A DNA stretch of 64,000 nucleotides from Terriglobales bacterium (GTDB taxonomy: Bacteria; Acidobacteriota; Terriglobia; Terriglobales; Acidobacteriaceae), in NCBI GenBank assembly GCA_035487355.1, contig DATHMF010000116.1:1-64000 (forward strand). Direction: 5' to 3'. The notes beneath the pieces are model-generated. The model saw only the letters and a program-made list of their open reading frames with translations, did no database searches and was not told the DNA's origin. This document shows positions 2,904 through 21,084 of the stretch, one piece after another. A program made the position numbers and the translations under genes. How positions within the stretch are numbered: the stretch's first letter is position 1; the number at the start of each line of letters is the position of its first letter.

Positions 2904-3386
2904 TTATTCTGAAAACATCGGTACCTGGCCCTCGGCTGTCGGCAATGTTTTCCGGCGCCGCGCCTGCGGGCCGCCAATCACGGCCAGCACGGCCAGCGAT
3001 TCCAATGCTTGTTTCGGAACAAATATCCGTTGCGTATTGGACCGTGTATCGGGAGGAATGATGAGAAATCCATCCGCACTAAGCTGTGTCAGCTCATTCG
3101 GCATCATGCCTTCAATGACCTCACCATCCCGGAACCTCAGCCGCACCCAAAGTCCCTCGCTGCGGGGGCGGGCGGCAAAGGTTTTGCGGTTGAGCGACTC
3201 GGAATCATTGAACTCCCGGACAAAATACACTCCCTTGATCTCTTCCAGATCAATGAATACCTGCTTGCCGCTGGTGTTCAGCAACTCCAGTTTGCCCTCG
3301 GTCACAAAGCTGGCTGGCGACACATGCCCCTGGACTGCGTCCCGATCTAGCTTGCGCACGATTACTTTTTTATGAGTCGAAGGCAT
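2904..3386 (-). CDS. conserved hypothetical protein (DUF6982-like?)
   Basis: 160 aa from the ATG at 3386; a TTG 15 bases further up is also in frame. It opens MPSTHKKVIVRKLDRD and is rich in predicted beta strands (VIVRKLD, KLELLN, VFIDLEEIKGVYFVREF, LWVRLRFRDGEVIEGMM). It ends in a short basic and polar tail. There is no signal peptide and no catalytic motif that I recognise. The VRFxDGxxxxG pattern recalls small domains of unknown function common in Acidobacteriota and Deltaproteobacteria. A TACAAT box lies about 26 bases upstream (3420-3415, read leftward). Function unknown. Confidence 0.65.
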   Translation of the reverse strand: MPSTHKKVIVRKLDRDAVQGHVSPASFVTEGKLELLNTSGKQVFIDLEEIKGVYFVREFNDSESLNRKTFAARPRSEGLWVRLRFRDGEVIEGMMPNELTQLSADGFLIIPPDTRSNTQRIFVPKQALESLAVLAVIGGPQARRRKTLPTAEGQVPMFSE

Positions 3387-3631
3387 GGTAGGTATCGGCA
3401 ATCACCCCTAGCTATTGTATTGGGTTATTCTCGCATTTTTACCTGTTTTCGTGTCAGACTAACCTCAAAGTAGCCAAAGAGACAATGTTCATGATATGTT
3501 AAGGGGTTTGTGACGGGCCCTTGAAGCGCATTACCAGCCGTATAAGTCTATTATCATGAGCAACTTGCAGACAGAAGACCACTTCCGCAATATGGGGGAA
3601 GTGTGTTATCAGGAGTGTTTAGTCCCCGTCC

Positions 3632-14962: not shown

Positions 14963-15519
14963 TCAACTTCTTAAATCCTGGGACCATGATTGCCGGCCGT
15001 GCCTTTTCGGATCTTGTGCGCTCGCGACAGGTTCTGAGCTGACGGTGCTTTGATCCTGTTGTGCTTCCTGCTGGTCTTCAGGTTGATCTGGCTTACAGAG
15101 CTGGGAGTAGTAGCTCATGGTTCGGGCTGAGGCCAGTTGCTCCAGCAGAGCGGTTTCTTTCAGGGAGCGGAGCAAGAGGCAGGCCATATTGCAGAGAGCC
15201 TTGGCAGCGCGGAGGTCTATCTCTCTGCGGCGGAATTGGTTGACGGTTTCGGCCAGCAGTTTGGTGATGTCGGAGGGAGTCTCGAGAGAGAGAACGGGGA
15301 GACCGGGAGGCATGGTGATTGTGTCAGCCTCACGGCTGGGGGCTTCTTCTGGGCTTCTTTCTGCACTTCTTTTTGGGCCTGGGCTTGTTTGTTCTTCTGC
15401 TCGGGATCGTGAAAAAAGCAATAGAATTTGCCGGCTTCGACATCGCCGTGGCAGCGGGCGCCGATTTTGCTGATGTATCGGCAGCGGGGGGTTTTGGCGT
15501 TAACTTCAGCGTTCTTCAT
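14963..15519 (-). pseudogene. frameshifted paralogue of the adjacent Cys/His-rich protein
   Basis: The reading frame from ATG 15519 (AGGAGA 9 bases upstream) encodes a Cys/His module, PRCRYISKIGARCHGD then FYCFFHDPEQK, matching the intact neighbour at 15627-16064. After about residue 58 the frame no longer matches, while a second frame (ending 14963) continues with LETPSDITKLLAETVNQFRRREIDLRAAKAL, matching LETPSDVAELLSETINQF of the neighbour. The two halves join near GGGGG at 15338-15342 and need a -1 shift (or one lost base). This suggests an inactivated gene or a sequencing error in a homopolymer. The C-terminal tail is longer and unrelated to the neighbour. Confidence 0.75.
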
Positions 15520-15626
15520 ATCTATTTTCTCCTGAGAATCAATCCCACACAGGTTTGCCGCCGGTGTGGGATTCCAGATTTCGGTCTGGTCTTCGAATCA
15601 TCGAATCAATGAATCAATCCATGGAA

Positions 15627-16064
15627 TTAATTCATGAGGTAATCGTTTGGGCCGGGGTAAGCCTCGGTCTTTTTGGCGGAGCGGGCAGCCCTGCGCTTTT
15701 GTGTGTCGGCCACTTTCATGAGGCTGAGCATGACGTTGGCCATTTGGCCGACGGCTTTGGCGGTGTCCATGTCTATCTCTCCCATGCGAAACTGGTTGAT
15801 GGTTTCGGATAACAGCTCGGCCACATCGGAGGGTGTCTCCAGCGATTTGGCGGAGAGATTGGGAGGCAGGAAGGTCTTTTTTTCAGTCGCACCGCTGCGA
15901 ACCTTTCCGCCTTGCTTGCGGGCTGCGGCCTGTTTTTGTTTCTGCTCGGGATCGTGAAAAAAACAATAAGGTTTGCCGGTCTGGGGATCGGCCTGGCAGG
16001 GGCTCCCGTTTTTGCTGGTGTGCTGGCAACGGGGCTTGTTGCCGAACAATTCTTTAATGCCCAT
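15627..16064 (-). CDS. small Cys/His-rich (zinc-ribbon-like) protein
   Basis: 145 aa. Residues 12-39 hold CQHTSKNGSPCQAD and YCFFHDPEQK, a C-x9-C-x10-C-x3-H pattern that probably binds zinc. A basic linker (QKQAAARKQGGKVRSG) leads to a helical region, LETPSDVAELLSETINQFRMGEIDMDTAKAVGQMANVMLSLMKV. An excellent ribosome-binding site (AAGGAGGT) precedes ATG 16064. The frameshifted copy lies 107 bases downstream in the same direction, so this is a tandem duplication. Similar short modules occur in many acidobacterial proteins of unknown role. Confidence 0.75.
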   Translation of the reverse strand: MGIKELFGNKPRCQHTSKNGSPCQADPQTGKPYCFFHDPEQKQKQAAARKQGGKVRSGATEKKTFLPPNLSAKSLETPSDVAELLSETINQFRMGEIDMDTAKAVGQMANVMLSLMKVADTQKRRAARSAKKTEAYPGPNDYLMN

Positions 16065-16401: not shown

Positions 16402-16558
16402 AACATTCCACCAGGTATTGGTAGAAGTAGCTTTTCGGCGAATGAGTTGCCGCCCGAGGTTCAAGCAGTAGGTTTCTGTAGACCCCGCAGCAAGCACGCC
16501 GGTTTCACACTTCTCCCTAGGGCCGAACCCATGGGAAACAATTCTCTTTAGGAGATGT

Positions 16559-16987
16559 GTGAAAGTGGCATCCGACAAAATCGAACTTCAGCGTATCTTT
16601 GACCGCACTGATGGACATTGTCACATCTGCTGGAAAAAACTCTGCTTTAACAATTACGGTGATTTTGGTTCACGGGGCTGCTGGGAGGTCGAGCATTCAA
16701 TCGCCCGCGCCAACGGCGGCACCTGCCACGGAAACAACAAGTACGCCGCGTGCATTTCATGCAATCGGTCAAAAGGCACAAATTCCAGTCGTCTTGCGCG
16801 TTTGCTCAATGGAAGAACTCGTGCTCCGCTTTCGAGAAGTAAAAAAGAGAAAATACGGAAAGACAACACAGTCGGCGGAAGTTTCCTAGGCGGCTTAGCT
16901 GGTGCTTTTCTTGGGCCCGGCGGGATTCTACTCGGAGCGATCTTAGGCGGCGTCATTGGTAATTCGATTAAACCGGAGGCGAAATGA
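16559..16987 (+). CDS. HNH nuclease domain with C-terminal glycine zipper
   Basis: 142 aa. Residues 16-80 form an HNH module with zinc-binding pairs: CHICWKKLCF (21-30), the active-site region WEVEHSIARANGG (about 42-54) and NNKYAACISCNRSKGT. A basic linker leads to a glycine zipper at about 105-138 (GGSFLGGLAGAFLGPGGILL and GAILGGVIGNS), a type of segment that inserts in membranes or oligomerises. GTG 16559 is preceded by AGGAG (16550-16554) 4 bases away; GTG 16565 has better spacing and is an alternative. The stop overlaps the next start by 4 bases (ATGA). The fusion suggests a nuclease tethered to a membrane or oligomer; its target is unknown. Confidence 0.8.
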   Translation: MKVASDKIELQRIFDRTDGHCHICWKKLCFNNYGDFGSRGCWEVEHSIARANGGTCHGNNKYAACISCNRSKGTNSSRLARLLNGRTRAPLSRSKKEKIRKDNTVGGSFLGGLAGAFLGPGGILLGAILGGVIGNSIKPEAK

Positions 16988-17685
16988 GCCAGATCAGATT
17001 GCCAGCAACCTGTATCGCTGAGTTAGCGTACGCCACACCAGGTGCTCGAGCAAGCAAGCTTCGACCTTATAAATATAGTAACCGGGGTGAAGGTGCAGGC
17101 CGCAGCGCCTACTACAAAGGAACAAGAGATACGGTACGAGAGTACCATCGCTCCCAAAACAATACTCGTGTGCTTCGTCAAGCTATCGAGAGACTCACTG
17201 CAATCGAGAATGACTTGAGCTTGCCAAGACAAACTCGTACTAAGGCCAGAAAGAATATCGAAGCCTTATATGCATACGAAGATTTATATGGGGCTCGCAA
17301 GTTTACCGTGATGCCAAACCATTTTCTGGCATTGGAGGTTGGTTCGGTCACAATTAAAGCACAACCGGACCTATGGGTTTCAGAAAATGGAACAGAGGTT
17401 CTAATAAAGATAGGAGTAGCTAAGAATAGGAGCGCTGACCAAGTGGATTTGCTGCTGCACCTGATAAGAAAAGCTGCAATAAAAACCGGTTATAAAATTC
17501 GTGCGAGAAATGTCGTCTATCTGAATACCAAGACAGGTGAAGAGGTAATATCGCATCGTCCTTTGAATTACTTTAATCGCACTATTGTGAATACTTGCCA
17601 CGCAATTAGCGGTGTTTGGCAGGATGTGCGTCCTCCTGTGCCACGTCAGCGACCAGTTACATCGCAAAATGTAAACTCCAAATGA
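16984..17685 (+). CDS. hypothetical protein with degenerate PD-(D/E)XK-like core
   Basis: 233 aa, overlapping the HNH gene by 4 bases. The N-terminal half is basic and polar. The C-terminal half has a beta-rich block, FLALEVGSVTIKAQPDLWVS then EVLIKIGVAKN, with Pro-Asp at 128-129 and Lys 142. A helix (VDLLLHLIRKAAIKTGYKI) and a strand pair (RNVVYLNTKTGEEV) follow. The order strand-PD-strand-K-helix-strand is that of PD-(D/E)XK nucleases, but the residue two before Lys is Leu instead of Glu/Asp, so it may be inactive or use a variant site. No family name is certain. Translational coupling to the HNH protein points to a joint function. Confidence 0.7.
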   Translation: MSQIRLPATCIAELAYATPGARASKLRPYKYSNRGEGAGRSAYYKGTRDTVREYHRSQNNTRVLRQAIERLTAIENDLSLPRQTRTKARKNIEALYAYEDLYGARKFTVMPNHFLALEVGSVTIKAQPDLWVSENGTEVLIKIGVAKNRSADQVDLLLHLIRKAAIKTGYKIRARNVVYLNTKTGEEVISHRPLNYFNRTIVNTCHAISGVWQDVRPPVPRQRPVTSQNVNSK

Positions 17686-17694
17686 GGGTGTCAC

Positions 17695-17925
17695 ATGACA
17701 AAGAATACGGGCAATGAGGAATCCACGAACGATTTGCAAAAGACAATGAAGGCTTTATTGTTAGTTCAGATTGGCGGTTGGAAGCAGCGGCAACAGGTCG
17801 AGTTACTAGACAGGGTGGGGTTTAGACAGACAGAGATCGCTCAACTATTAGGAACAACCGGAAATGCCGTGAGTGTTAGATTGGCCGAAATTAGAAGGGA
17901 AGCGAAGAGGGCTTGTAAAGGTTAA
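17695..17925 (+). CDS. small HTH protein 1 of 6
   Basis: 76 aa. A polar N-terminus is followed by a helix (KTMKALLLVQIGGWKQRQQVELL) and a helix-turn-helix, RVGFRQTEIAQLLGTTGNAV then SVRLAEIRREAKR, which resembles sigma-70 region 4. GAGGGTG stands just before the ATG, 9 bases after the preceding stop. It is the first of six consecutive small proteins with the same plan: one hydrophobic helix, then a Gly-x-x-x-x-E-I-A-x-x-L-G-type HTH and a basic tail. Likely a DNA-binding subunit; the target is unknown. Confidence 0.8.
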   Translation: MTKNTGNEESTNDLQKTMKALLLVQIGGWKQRQQVELLDRVGFRQTEIAQLLGTTGNAVSVRLAEIRREAKRACKG

Positions 17926-17940
17926 CAGAAGGGAGTGGCA

Positions 17941-18171
17941 ATGGCTAAGAAAAAGGAAGAAGCAACGGAGATATCCAATCCAATTCTCGATGAACTGCGC
18001 AAACTTGTGCGCCTAGCAGCGCTGTCGTTAACAAAGGGAAGAACCCAACGTGAACAAATCTACATGATGGCAGATGCTGGAATGAATAGAAATGAGATTG
18101 CAAGCTTGGTGGGAACGAGCGCTGGAACCGTTAGCGTGGAACTGTCGAATCGCAAAGATAAAAAGCGCTAG
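17941..18171 (+). CDS. small HTH protein 2 of 6
   Basis: 76 aa from ATG 17941 (AAGGGAG 6 bases upstream); an in-frame GTG 6 bases earlier overlaps that site and is less likely. A charged N-terminus (AKKKEEATE), a helix LDELRKLVRLAALSL, then the HTH AGMNRNEIASLVGTSAGTVS and a basic end KDKKR. It has the same layout as protein 1, but identity is confined to HTH core positions, so the copies are strongly diverged. Confidence 0.78.
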   Translation: MAKKKEEATEISNPILDELRKLVRLAALSLTKGRTQREQIYMMADAGMNRNEIASLVGTSAGTVSVELSNRKDKKR

Positions 18172-18201
18172 ATATTTAGGGGTGTGGAAAGGTCACCAAC
18201 T

Positions 18202-18429
18202 ATGAAGAAGAATAATTCCTCAAGTGATGAGTCTCAAGATACACAACTAAAGTACCTTGAATTAATTGCGGCTTTACTTCTTGAATCGCAGTATGAAGGA
18301 AATCAAACTCGTCAAATCGAGTTCCTTGTTAGACAGAACTTTACTTCGCAACAGATCGCAGGCCTTCTTGGGAAGGATCCAACTCAAGTTAGTAAAGACA
18401 TTTATAAAATCAAAAATCGGAAAAGCTAA
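18202..18429 (+). CDS. small HTH protein 3 of 6
   Basis: 75 aa from ATG 18202, chosen because AAAGG lies 9 bases upstream; a GTG at 18184 is in frame. Acidic-polar N-terminus, then LKYLELIAALLLESQ, QTRQIEFLVRQ and the HTH NFTSQQIAGLLGKDPTQVSK with a basic tail. The next gene starts 4 bases after its stop. The aliphatic helix before the HTH is shared by all six proteins and could mediate dimer or hetero-oligomer formation. Confidence 0.75.
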   Translation: MKKNNSSSDESQDTQLKYLELIAALLLESQYEGNQTRQIEFLVRQNFTSQQIAGLLGKDPTQVSKDIYKIKNRKS

Positions 18430-18433
18430 AGAT

Positions 18434-18592
18434 ATGCCTAACAACGATGACAAAACCAAAGATTTGCTTGAATCACTTCTGCTACTACAACTATACAATC
18501 TGGGAATATCCCAGGGGGCTATTGCCAAGTTCATGGGAAAAAGTAAAACATGGGTCAATGAGCGACTCGAAGGCCTTCCCAAGAAGCAATAA
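18434..18592 (+). CDS. small HTH protein 4 of 6 (shortest)
   Basis: 52 aa. ATG 18434 follows the previous stop after 4 bases (CTAAAGATATG). The sequence has the leucine-rich helix KDLLESLLLLQLYNLG followed directly by the HTH GISQGAIAKFMGKSKTWVNE and a short basic end. It lacks the middle helix segment (the QRxQ region) of the other five. It is too short for most automatic gene callers; the layout, position and codon pattern support it. Confidence 0.65.
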   Translation: MPNNDDKTKDLLESLLLLQLYNLGISQGAIAKFMGKSKTWVNERLEGLPKKQ

Positions 18593-18647
18593 CGAAATCT
18601 CTTGATTAATTTCCGCCCCGACGCACTCAATGCGAGATGAGGAAACG

Positions 18648-18914
18648 ATGCGAAAGAAGACTGGTCTTAGTGCTGAAGAGCTTTTGCAAGATGTTAACAA
18701 GAAACTTGATCAATTTTTGCGAGATGTTAATAAAAAACTTGATCAGCTTATTATGATTATTAGCATACAAGCATCAGGCGAAAGAAGCGTGACTGATAAC
18801 GCTCGGATGTTTAAGACTGCAGGTTTAGATAACGAAACCATTTCCGAAATCCTGGGCACAACGCCAGCGACAATACGCACGCTTACTTCTAATTTAAGGA
18901 AGAAAAAGAGATGA
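18648..18914 (+). CDS. small HTH protein 5 of 6 with duplicated helix
   Basis: 88 aa from ATG 18648 (GAGG about 6 bases upstream); an ATG at 18630 is also in frame. Residues 14-36 contain a duplicated unit, LLQDVNKKLDQ and FLRDVNKKLDQ, encoded by two nearly identical 33-base stretches, forming a longer coiled-coil-like helix. Then IMIISIQ, KTAGLDNETISEILGTTPAT and a basic tail NLRKKKR. It lies 55 bases after protein 4 and overlaps protein 6 by 4 bases. Confidence 0.75.
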   Translation: MRKKTGLSAEELLQDVNKKLDQFLRDVNKKLDQLIMIISIQASGERSVTDNARMFKTAGLDNETISEILGTTPATIRTLTSNLRKKKR

Positions 18915-19123
18915 CCGAAACAAGGGAAACTAGAGAAGAACGTTTGCTCGCAGTAATTTTGCTGCAACTGATGAAAGGCGCAACTCAAAAGGAGAAGGCG
19001 TTGCAACTTAGCATTGCCGGCTTTACGAATGTTGAGATAGCAGATCTTCTTGGAATGAAGGCGAACGTAGTCGCTCAAAGCGTTTACGACGCGAAGAAAG
19101 TCATGAAGTTCAAGAAGAAATAG
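18911..19123 (+). CDS. small HTH protein 6 of 6
   Basis: 70 aa. Its ATG overlaps the stop of protein 5 (ATGA), indicating translational coupling. Layout: charged start (TETRETREERL), helix LLAVILLQLMKGATQKEKAL, HTH IAGFTNVEIADLLGMKANVV, then a basic end KFKKK. The HEPN-like gene begins 3 bases after its stop. Confidence 0.78.
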   Translation: MTETRETREERLLAVILLQLMKGATQKEKALQLSIAGFTNVEIADLLGMKANVVAQSVYDAKKVMKFKKK

Positions 19124-19126
19124 CTT

Positions 19127-19639
19127 ATGCCTGTCCCTAAGGATTTCAGACGATTCAAGTATCAATCGGTACGCATCGATCGCTGTGGCAGGTCAATTGG
19201 CCGTAACTCTTATTGGAAGCTTTATGCTATAGAGAACTCCTGGAGAATCATCATCCATTCGGTCTTGTCAGTCCAAATCAGCCCGACGTGGTGGGCCGTT
19301 GCTGTCGGTCCGAAGAAGCAAAGGACCCTTACGAGCTTCCGAAATCAATATCTTAACAATCCCTTGCATGCATCACCTGGCCATCACGACATCTACTTAT
19401 TTTTTCTGAGTGATCTTACTAAGATGCTTGCCGATTACCGTAATTTGTTCATTACAGTTCTGTCTGATATAGATCAATGGATAGTTCGTCTGGAAACGAT
19501 ACGTCTTCCCAGAAATTTGGTCGGTCACATGAATTATCCAAATACCTATGACAGACAGAGAATTGACACCACTTATGCGTCGCTGCCTGGAGCTTTTGCA
19601 CAGCTAAATCAGAACGGAATAACGGTTCTGATTCCTTGA
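19127..19639 (+). CDS. HEPN-like protein (putative RNase)
   Basis: 170 aa. Largely helical after residue 25: NSYWKLYAIENSWRIIIHSVL (28-48), HHDIYLFFLSDLTKMLADY (86-104), LFITVLSDIDQWIVRLETI (107-125) and LPRNLVGHMNYPN. Arg 129 and His 134 form an Rx4H motif, the catalytic signature of HEPN RNases, and Glu 36/Arg 40 in helix 1 fit the usual conserved pair. HEPN proteins are common RNA-cutting effectors in defence and toxin systems. It is the last gene of the plus-strand operon, convergent with the nuclease gene ending 10 bases away. The family is assigned by motif and helix pattern only. Confidence 0.65.
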   Translation: MPVPKDFRRFKYQSVRIDRCGRSIGRNSYWKLYAIENSWRIIIHSVLSVQISPTWWAVAVGPKKQRTLTSFRNQYLNNPLHASPGHHDIYLFFLSDLTKMLADYRNLFITVLSDIDQWIVRLETIRLPRNLVGHMNYPNTYDRQRIDTTYASLPGAFAQLNQNGITVLIP

Positions 19640-19649
19640 AGACCAGGTT

Positions 19650-20429
19650 TTATCTGAGCTTGTTCGGTGGTACTGGATTAACGTCTACTACAATGGTTCG
19701 TATTGTGCCAGACGCTCTCGAAATTACTGCTGGTATAGCTTGTTTCTGATTTAGCTTGCGTACATCAAAGAAAACAAGCCAACCTTCTCGGCGGGCTCTG
19801 TTTCGCATGTAACTCTCCAATTGAGCTGGACCCGGAATGCCGCTGCCACTTAGCATCTTCAATTCAACAATGTGAACCAAGCCTGATGAGAAGGTCACGA
19901 GGACGTCAACAAAGCCAATGCCAGAAACTGCTTCACGAAGCAAGGAGCCTCTCCCTGCAAGTTTTGCCTTGGCAAAGACTCCGAGGAGTTCTTGACCATG
20001 TTTTTCGGGATGTTTTTTAAGCCGTCCTTTTGATCGAGACTCCCAAAAAGAATTTACCGCCTCCGCTTCGACGGTGTGCTTAAATTCATCAAGAAACTTA
20101 CGAATAGTGATGCGGGGAAGTACTGTTAGGCGCTTTCCGGAAGATTCAACCCTTTCCGCGACAGCCTTTGTGAGGAAGATCAGCCTTTTTTTGAACTTGG
20201 TGTCCAAGAGAGAAAGAATGTTTAGGCTGAATTCATCACGATTGATATTCGTGTTTCTACGATAGAAGGCCGTACGAATTCGTTTCATTGAAGCAAGAAA
20301 TTCGGCTACTGTCCTACCTGACCGCTCCTGGTCATAGAGCTTGGCCAAGGTAATGGCATACCGATCAGGATCACTAAGGCCGCGACTAACAAAGTAATCC
20401 TCGAGATATCCTTGGACTGCGAAAATCAT
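19650..20429 (-). CDS. PD-(D/E)XK nuclease family protein
   Basis: 259 aa. The N-terminal part is helical (residues 1-160). The C-terminal domain has the full nuclease set: Glu 166 in LLREAVSG, Asp 175 in GFVDVLVTF, ELK (Glu 189, Lys 191) in HIVELKMLSG and a RecB-type QxxxY (Gln 203, Tyr 207) in PAQLESYM, then WLVFFDVRKL. It should cut DNA using a divalent metal. Its gene starts 14 bases after the stop of the winged-helix regulator, and they probably form a two-gene unit. The ATG is the first codon of the frame (MIFAVQGYLED). The helical N-terminus may bind a partner. Confidence 0.75.
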   Translation of the reverse strand: MIFAVQGYLEDYFVSRGLSDPDRYAITLAKLYDQERSGRTVAEFLASMKRIRTAFYRRNTNINRDEFSLNILSLLDTKFKKRLIFLTKAVAERVESSGKRLTVLPRITIRKFLDEFKHTVEAEAVNSFWESRSKGRLKKHPEKHGQELLGVFAKAKLAGRGSLLREAVSGIGFVDVLVTFSSGLVHIVELKMLSGSGIPGPAQLESYMRNRARREGWLVFFDVRKLNQKQAIPAVISRASGTIRTIVVDVNPVPPNKLR

Positions 20430-20443
20430 GTCGGTATCACAGA

Positions 20444-20884
20444 CTATCTCTTCTTCTTTGTTGCCTGGTTAGTGTGTCCGTCAGGCCTAAGATTGTATTC
20501 TTTGCAAAGATATCTAGTGATTTGAAGAGTGCGATCAATCGGTTTTTTTGCCCATATATCGCGTCTACCGGTGGCATCCACAATTTCTAGAAGCCCCTCT
20601 TCTTTAAGTATGCGTAGCTCCCGACTTACATTTGGTTGCTTCATTCCCAGGTGCTGAGCAATTTGAATAACACCTCTATTCCCATTGGCAGCGAGATAAA
20701 TCTGCGCTCTGCGCTTGCCGTGCCTGAAAATCTTTTTAACGGTCTCAGCGTGCTTACCGGCCTCTGCACGTAGCGCAAATGCATTCGTTTCATCAATTGA
20801 CTCTACCTTATTTTCGATATGAGCGAGGCGGCTGAGTATCTGTTGGTAGGACTCTTCTCTTATATCTCGTTTTTGGTTCTTCAT
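20444..20884 (-). CDS. winged-helix transcriptional regulator
   Basis: 146 aa from ATG 20884; the frame extends upstream into a repeat, which is not used. The N-terminal 50 residues form a coiled helix (SYQQILSRLAHIENKVESI). Then an ArsR/MarR-like winged helix: RRAQIYLAANGNRGVIQIAQ, LGMKQPNVSRELRILKEEGL and a wing LEIVDATGRRDIWAKKP. No metal-binding cysteines are seen. The gene is followed by the PD-(D/E)XK nuclease. Two direct TGAACCTAAA repeats 30-51 bases upstream of its start could be an autoregulatory operator. Confidence 0.75.
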   Translation of the reverse strand: MKNQKRDIREESYQQILSRLAHIENKVESIDETNAFALRAEAGKHAETVKKIFRHGKRRAQIYLAANGNRGVIQIAQHLGMKQPNVSRELRILKEEGLLEIVDATGRRDIWAKKPIDRTLQITRYLCKEYNLRPDGHTNQATKKKR

Positions 20885-20913
20885 TTCTTCTTTGGTCTCT
20901 TTCTCATCTATGC

Positions 20914-20935
20914 TGAACCTAAAGTTGAACCTAAA
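20914..20935. promoter_or_regulatory. direct repeats upstream of the winged-helix gene
   Basis: TGAACCTAAA occurs at 20914-20923 and 20926-20935 with a 12-base period. The position just upstream of a regulator gene suggests an operator. Read on the gene's strand the units are TTTAGGTTCA. Confidence 0.4.
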
Positions 20936-21016
20936 ACTGCAATGAGGTAGGAAGTGCCGTTCTTTCTTAGCATAACAACGCCTTCTAAGAAGTCCAAGAC
21001 CGAAGTGGGGAACGTC

Positions 21017-21084
21017 CGTGGGCAAGATGCCCACGGGACAGCCGGCGGGACGCCGGCGCTACAACACAGCCGAGGACGGCTGTG
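21017..21084. repeat. compound REP-like element with three hairpins, family A
   Basis: Three adjacent perfect stem-loops: CGTGGGCAAGATGCCCACG (21017-21035), GCCGGCG/CGCCGGC around GGA (21041-21057), and CACAGCCG/CGGCTGTG around AGGA (21065-21084). The first two units recur in the same order at 33026-33070. The element sits between ftsK and the island, at its right border. Confidence 0.75.

Follow-up and report, generated by a model that had tools for sequence, protein, structure and literature searches.

A conserved HNH–glycine-zipper protein of bacterial defense islands and its possible role as a membrane-tethered nuclease

What might an HNH nuclease be doing with a glycine-zipper tail in a protein of only 142 amino acids? 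The question is raised by a gene in a stretch of 64,000 nucleotides (hereafter the window) from the genome of a Terriglobales bacterium (assembly GCA_035487355.1, contig DATHMF010000116.1). The coding sequence (16559–16987, + strand) begins with GTG and is preceded by a probable Shine-Dalgarno sequence, AGGAG, read at 16550–16554 (+); the starts of homologues line up better with a second in-frame GTG at 16565, which leaves an uncertainty of two codons in where translation begins. The original prediction had described an HNH nuclease, a basic linker, and a glycine-zipper segment, and its coordinates and domain description are correct. The HNH domain spans residues 4–83 (16568–16807, +), as defined by PHROGs matches, alignment, and a structural model; the linker, net basic in composition, residues 92–102 (16832–16864, +); and the uncharged zipper segment, delimited by composition, motifs, and predicted helices, residues 103–137 (16865–16969, +). 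Our favored interpretation of this protein (HNH-GZ), held with moderate confidence, is an inner-membrane-tethered HNH DNA nuclease with a C-terminal hairpin, encoded by a portable and mostly autonomous defense gene.

The nuclease part is recognizable by both sequence and predicted structure. PHROGs HNH families match it with E-values to 1.4e-7, and the Pfam HNH model (PF01844) gives the window protein 18.5 bits, just under the curated cutoff of 21.4. Among 28 aligned members, C21, C24, H46, N60, C68, N69, and K72 are invariant and C65 is present in at least 90%, and the protein has the catalytic H-N-N/H residues and zinc Cys pairs of the HNH superfamily. A profile search of PDB sequences matched the HNH domains of ZRANB3, IscB, and Cas9 (E from 5e-5). 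In Foldseek, the top matches of the model were Cas9 HNH domains, EcoKMcrA, and the Gme nickase (E 3e-3 to 1e-2), with PacI also in the list and every E-value at least 3e-3; VIA-align superposed the HNH part on Cas9 HNH with Z up to 9.4 over 84 residues (rmsd 2.4). As modeled, the protein has the HNH fold, in a comparison that took in mainly residues 1–95 and thus not the tail. HNH-GZ resembles PF01844 endonucleases (EcoKMcrA, the Gme nickase, the HNH domain of Cas9) in fold, catalytic His/Asn/Asn, and paired Cys, but differs from them in standing alone with a membrane-type tail and in scoring below the Pfam cutoff. Metal-dependent DNA cleavage would be the expected activity. The PADLOC model for Septu PtuB reached only E=0.033, and no PtuA match was found among the window genes scanned.

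Whole-length homologues with ~52% identity are present in two other genomes. A search of genome contigs with the window sequence alone gave no match; a three-row alignment was needed, and with it 43 loci were recovered from species-level genomes. When every frame was read, 34 of these had the tail (two of them repeating L027), six lacked it, and three were fragments (L052–L054). Dropping the duplicates (L002, L028, and L029, which have the L027 protein; L004, the same as L030; L003 and L009, the same as the window) and adding the window and L010 gave 34 distinct fusion loci. HNH and tail are kept together in all of these, at ~33–55% identity and in at least 10 phyla: Acidobacteriota, Bacteroidota, Pseudomonadota, Planctomycetota, Verrucomicrobiota, Spirochaetota, Myxococcota, Ignavibacteriota, and several candidate phyla. 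Nearly all of the records are metagenome bins, Catenovulum sp. 2E275 (L045) being the sole one not labeled as a MAG. The claim that nuclease and glycine zipper form one protein is therefore upheld, and the search for other such fusions that accompanied it has yielded 34 distinct loci, the window included. The prediction had also warned that the tail might be unconserved or the frame extended by error. Neither is the case: the fusion is conserved, and the whole-length homologues, together with a tail dN/dS of ~0.1 in one close pair (L023/L043), rule out a frame error or chance ORF. The same HNH-GZ protein turns up in bins labeled Acidobacteria, Proteobacteria, and Planctomycetota (L027, L028, L029, L002), with matching neighbor ORFs in L027–L029, which probably reflects mis-binning or a mobile segment. 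In a tree built from HNH columns only, which included 32 of the 34 fusion proteins (L043, whose N-terminus is lost at a contig edge, and L045, whose frame lacks it, were left out), the six tail-less proteins fall on one side of a single branch with support 99/88, that is, with one change; the more distant, tail-less L011 was left out of the trees.

The tail itself is a constant feature of the family. In the window protein, residues 103–137 form 35 residues without charge that contain four overlapping GxxxGxxxG motifs, and a C-terminal hydrophobic segment is present in 34 of 34 fusion members. The best 19-residue Kyte-Doolittle mean of the tails ranges from 1.24 to 2.60, reaching at least 1.6 in 23 and staying under that threshold in 11, and peaks at no more than 0.79 in the six tail-less relatives. 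In 31 of 34 members, a net positive charge is carried by the 15 residues that precede the longest uncharged stretch (in L034 this stretch falls in the HNH part rather than the tail). The window tail alone has five small-xxx-small-xxx-small motifs versus 2.0 when its residues are shuffled (p=0.07, not decisive); over the 34 distinct members, 219 such motifs compare with 87 expected from within-tail shuffles. The excess is individually at p≤0.05 in 20 members, and at least one GxxxGxxxG is found in 31 (all except L013, L020, and L048). Across the 34 members, small-xxx-small spacing thus goes beyond what composition provides. Pfam glycine-zipper models match the window tail only below cutoff (PF05433, 14.8 versus 24.2 bits), and the same holds for a lipoprotein model of NCBIfam that covers this segment. 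Like the PF05433 Glycine-zipper 2TM family, the tail has GxxxG repeats in a hairpin of ~30 residues; unlike it, the tail is below cutoff, is joined to a nuclease, and has no lipoprotein signal. In L023/L043, the sole close pair, the tail has a dN/dS of 0.036/0.34 and the available HNH part one of 0.035/0.50. Constraint on the tail is thus about as strict as on the nuclease, and in this pair the tail is under purifying selection.

An AlphaFold2 model based on 28 of the 34 sequences (mean pLDDT 93) places two helices at the C-terminus (93–118 and 120–136), broken at G119-P120. Each hydrophobic arm has ~16–17 residues, which is short for a full crossing of the membrane and makes two such crossings and a re-entrant or tightly packed hairpin equally likely. 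The prediction that follows is of a protein that is probably a membrane anchor with a cytosolic nuclease. In the mechanism that we infer from sequence, the C-terminal glycine-zipper hairpin would hold the cytosolic HNH part on the inner membrane, with the N-terminal domain and the C-terminus both inside, and the zipper would probably pack subunits together. Such a tether would keep the nuclease away from the chromosome and close to entering DNA, and the gene would be able to join many unrelated defense operons. A zipper could also serve to carry a secreted antibacterial toxin, as in the contact-dependent glycine-zipper toxins known from a citation in PMC5821083. This seems very improbable for HNH-GZ, in which the zipper is C-terminal and no N-terminal signal is seen, and around which no immunity-like or secretion neighbor is conserved across loci, by eye.

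The fusion, its catalytic residues, and its hydrophobic tail are all conserved, and its neighborhoods are of defense type: HNH-GZ lies in defense islands, often as the first gene of an operon. A CBASS CD-NTase is present in five of 34 loci (L014, L015, L036, L038, L039), with a patatin effector beside it in L014 (by scan) and in L036, L038, and L039 (by eye). In L026, QatA follows HNH-GZ and a WYL protein lies on its other side, and in L017 a Prok-E2/ThiF/JAB set adjoins a metallo-beta-lactamase-like protein. The gap from the end of HNH-GZ to the next gene of the defense operon is 3 bp in L014, 6 bp in L038, 8 bp in L017, and 11 bp in L026. BilD immediately precedes HNH-GZ in L010, where a Bil-like operon lies 30 bp upstream (L010/L077). 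In L077 (G643:C5:262000-281000), the wider stretch around L010, the gene order, read by eye, is a two-Ubl protein, E2-like, JAB-like, BilD, and HNH-GZ last, with a convergent integrase; the integrase looks tyrosine-integrase-like, XRE and ImmA-like genes lie nearby (by eye), and the whole is perhaps a complete mobile defense cassette. ThiF/BilD-like and SIR2_2 neighbors are found in L031. E1-E2 is detected by PADLOC in L025, where the upstream gene reads by eye as JAB-E1, and the upstream genes of L021 read by eye as E2-like and JAB-E1; these upstream genes add a further link to ubiquitin-like conjugation modules. Other neighbors include a type IIG restriction enzyme (L018), an SNF2 helicase (L032), Mrr with PD-Lambda-4 (L033), OLD/GajA with type III restriction (L037), Avs4-like (L042), TmtA (L045), PDC-S05 (L020), and an SbcC/LmuB-like protein that is possibly housekeeping (L034).

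Altogether, 19 of the 34 loci, counting the window with its PDC-M34B, have a neighbor that matches Pfam or PADLOC at E≤1e-5, a figure to be taken as a description rather than a rate because proteins were picked by eye and seven loci (L012, L021, L022, L024, L030, L040, L048) have no scanned neighbors. PADLOC gave no match to the neighbor proteins chosen in L013, L019, L023, L035, and L041. In a control, 113 random genes matched 53 PADLOC models at 1e-8, so weak single matches mean little. Among the 25 of these 53 control families that were listed, each has one member (PD-T4-6, SoFic, MTase_II, RTasDnaG-like, and MkoA are examples), and cyclase (CBASS), Qat, Bil, and E1-E2 models are absent. 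The tail-less relatives L047, L046, and L051 adjoin, by eye, SIR2-like, DUF262-like, and cytosine methyltransferase genes; their position near restriction-type genes suggests that the family's tie to defense does not depend on the tail.

Because the partners vary so much among loci, HNH-GZ would act mainly alone. The main rival to this is an abortive role activated by the neighbors, in which the zipper would serve as a pore or as a switch in the membrane, with the HNH domain cutting the chromosome upon a CBASS, Qat, or Bil signal. Several loci do place HNH-GZ directly next to signaling systems and to effectors (patatin, SIR2). However, the partners are too varied for one signal, the protein lacks a ligand domain (neither SAVED nor CARF matches at E≤1), and a patatin-like effector is already present in four of the five CBASS loci. 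We consider abortive action unlikely. A comparison with the CBASS effector Cap5 (HNH-SAVED) is instructive: both are HNH nucleases in a CBASS context, with a weak fold match (Foldseek E=0.16), but HNH-GZ is without the SAVED sensor and most of its loci are without a CD-NTase.

The most regular association is with ImmA/IrrE-type peptidases. With an HMM run on every frame, Peptidase_M78 was found at 15 of the 34 fusion loci, always upstream of HNH-GZ (15 of 15) and never downstream, versus zero of six tail-less loci and zero of 12 random 12-kb stretches. All 34 genomes together have 50 M78 genes. In 15 whole genomes (64.4 Mb), seven of 23 M78 genes are no more than 5 kb from the single HNH-GZ gene (0.055 expected) and three of six CD-NTases lie near it (0.017 expected), odds that are optimistic because the genomes were hand-picked, three with CBASS and some with M78 already known to be present. 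An XRE-M78 and PIN-like pair is common to L014, L017, L020, L022, and L042 (by Pfam for L014). In two unrelated loci (L013 5681–5959, L002 744–1121), the gene directly upstream of HNH-GZ encodes a small HTH protein of XRE type that itself has a membrane-like segment at its C-terminus. From these positions we infer that expression often lies behind ImmA/IrrE-type or WYL regulators, an arrangement resembling CapH/CapP and CapW of CBASS (CapW/BrxR in PMC12255303). In CapH/CapP, according to PMC12255303 and PMC10904395, a protease cleaves a repressor and is activated by ssDNA. One could imagine that HNH-GZ, as the component common to CBASS, Qat, Bil, restriction, and STAND-like operons, cuts DNA at the membrane, and that the resulting ssDNA activates the adjacent ImmA/IrrE-type peptidase, as with CapP, thereby inducing a second-line system; we regard this as a long shot.

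The closest precedent for a tethered nuclease is SNIPE (PD-lambda-1), in which, as PMC13190303 reports, a membrane anchor prevents cutting of host DNA and phage DNA is cleaved during injection. Like SNIPE, HNH-GZ would be a chromosomal defense gene for a cytosolic nuclease joined to an inner-membrane anchor, working by place rather than by sequence. The architectures differ: in SNIPE, a TM at the N-terminus is combined with DUF4041 and a GIY-YIG nuclease (PMC13190303), whereas in HNH-GZ the HNH domain comes first and the glycine-zipper hairpin is C-terminal. Neither DUF4041 nor GIY-YIG is among the Pfam matches of the window protein at E≤1; lacking these domains, HNH-GZ is SNIPE-like at most and not a SNIPE. 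In a narrower form of our favored interpretation, the nuclease would use its anchored position to cut incoming DNA (from a phage, transformation, or conjugation) during passage through the inner membrane, a direct rather than abortive defense. By analogy, cutting at the phage entry site is plausible: the logic is that of SNIPE, whose TM domain prevents self-cutting (PMC13190303), and the loci share no one partner throughout, as would suit a protein that acts alone. Against it, no DUF4041-like domain binding DNA or tape measure was found with Pfam, and 142 amino acids leave no obvious injection sensor, so that we advance this narrower form tentatively. Membrane tethering, as put forward in the original prediction, comes out as the natural reading, given the 23 of 34 tails with Kyte-Doolittle means of at least 1.6, and the defense neighbors support an anti-phage role; insertion, a pore, and entry-site cutting we carry forward in the conditional. 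SNIPE showed that a nuclease at the membrane can tell self from non-self by location. If HNH-GZ does the same with a second, unrelated fold and another anchor, in many phyla and next to many defense systems, the strategy would seem to be a general one with more than one origin, and there would be an explanation for the additional gene seen repeatedly in operons of the CBASS, Qat, and Bil types. The components of HNH-GZ are already known and the combination is new; no description of an HNH–glycine-zipper family was found in the open-access literature searched, a body of work with subscription papers and preprints mostly outside it. HNH-GZ may be a component of bacterial immunity that has so far escaped notice.

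HNH genes are often mobile, and HNH-GZ might be a passenger, a homing-like or mobile nuclease that gathers in islands and whose tail has another role or none. Its occurrence is patchy, with two of 300 genomes of the window's family having it, the window's own included. The short distances of 3–11 bp to the next defense-operon gene in four loci argue against a passenger, as do the conserved tail and the lack of any match in searches of phage, plasmid, and viral-contig collections, and we think this explanation distinctly improbable. The same searches led us to reject a phage or plasmid gene as the identity of HNH-GZ.

In the window, the gene lies in an island of low GC (0.42–0.48 over ~16–21 kb, versus 0.53–0.61 on either side) that sits, by reading, between a ferredoxin-like gene and ftsK. 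No tRNA was found at the island, and in the ftsK stretches of six relatives no other window gene flanks FtsK. HNH-GZ has no CBASS, Qat, Bil, or M78 neighbor here, and no CD-NTase is among the scanned neighbors. Its stop codon overlaps (ATGA) the start of a gene for a 233-aa protein of a family without known match (16984–17685, +), with which it probably shares an operon. Homologues of the 233-aa gene occur in four of 200 genomes of the family, the window's own included. A fixed system of the two genes was rejected, as the homologues in both loci that were read (L005 1492–2196, L006 1465–2169) are without HNH. Downstream is a tandem array (17695–19123, +) of ORFs that are short and diverged and that all match sigma-region-4/HTH weakly in Pfam. 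It runs into the gene for a 170-aa protein (19127–19639, +) that resembles PDC-M34B, a defense candidate of PADLOC (E=7e-13), and whose RNLVGH looks HEPN-like by reading. On the opposite strand are a 259-aa protein with no Pfam or PADLOC match (19650–20429, −), in which a VELK region looks PD-(D/E)XK-like by reading, and a winged-HTH regulator whose HTH is Csa3/CasR-like in the scans (20444–21034, −). Upstream of and divergent from HNH-GZ, two ORFs (15217–16064, −) have, by reading, a common Cys/His motif, and one of them has a below-cutoff DUF5763 match. In L005, the 233-aa gene is divergent from an ORF (3066–3551) that resembles 15627–16064 of the window, with no HNH gene between them; in the window, HNH-GZ is placed between just such a pair.
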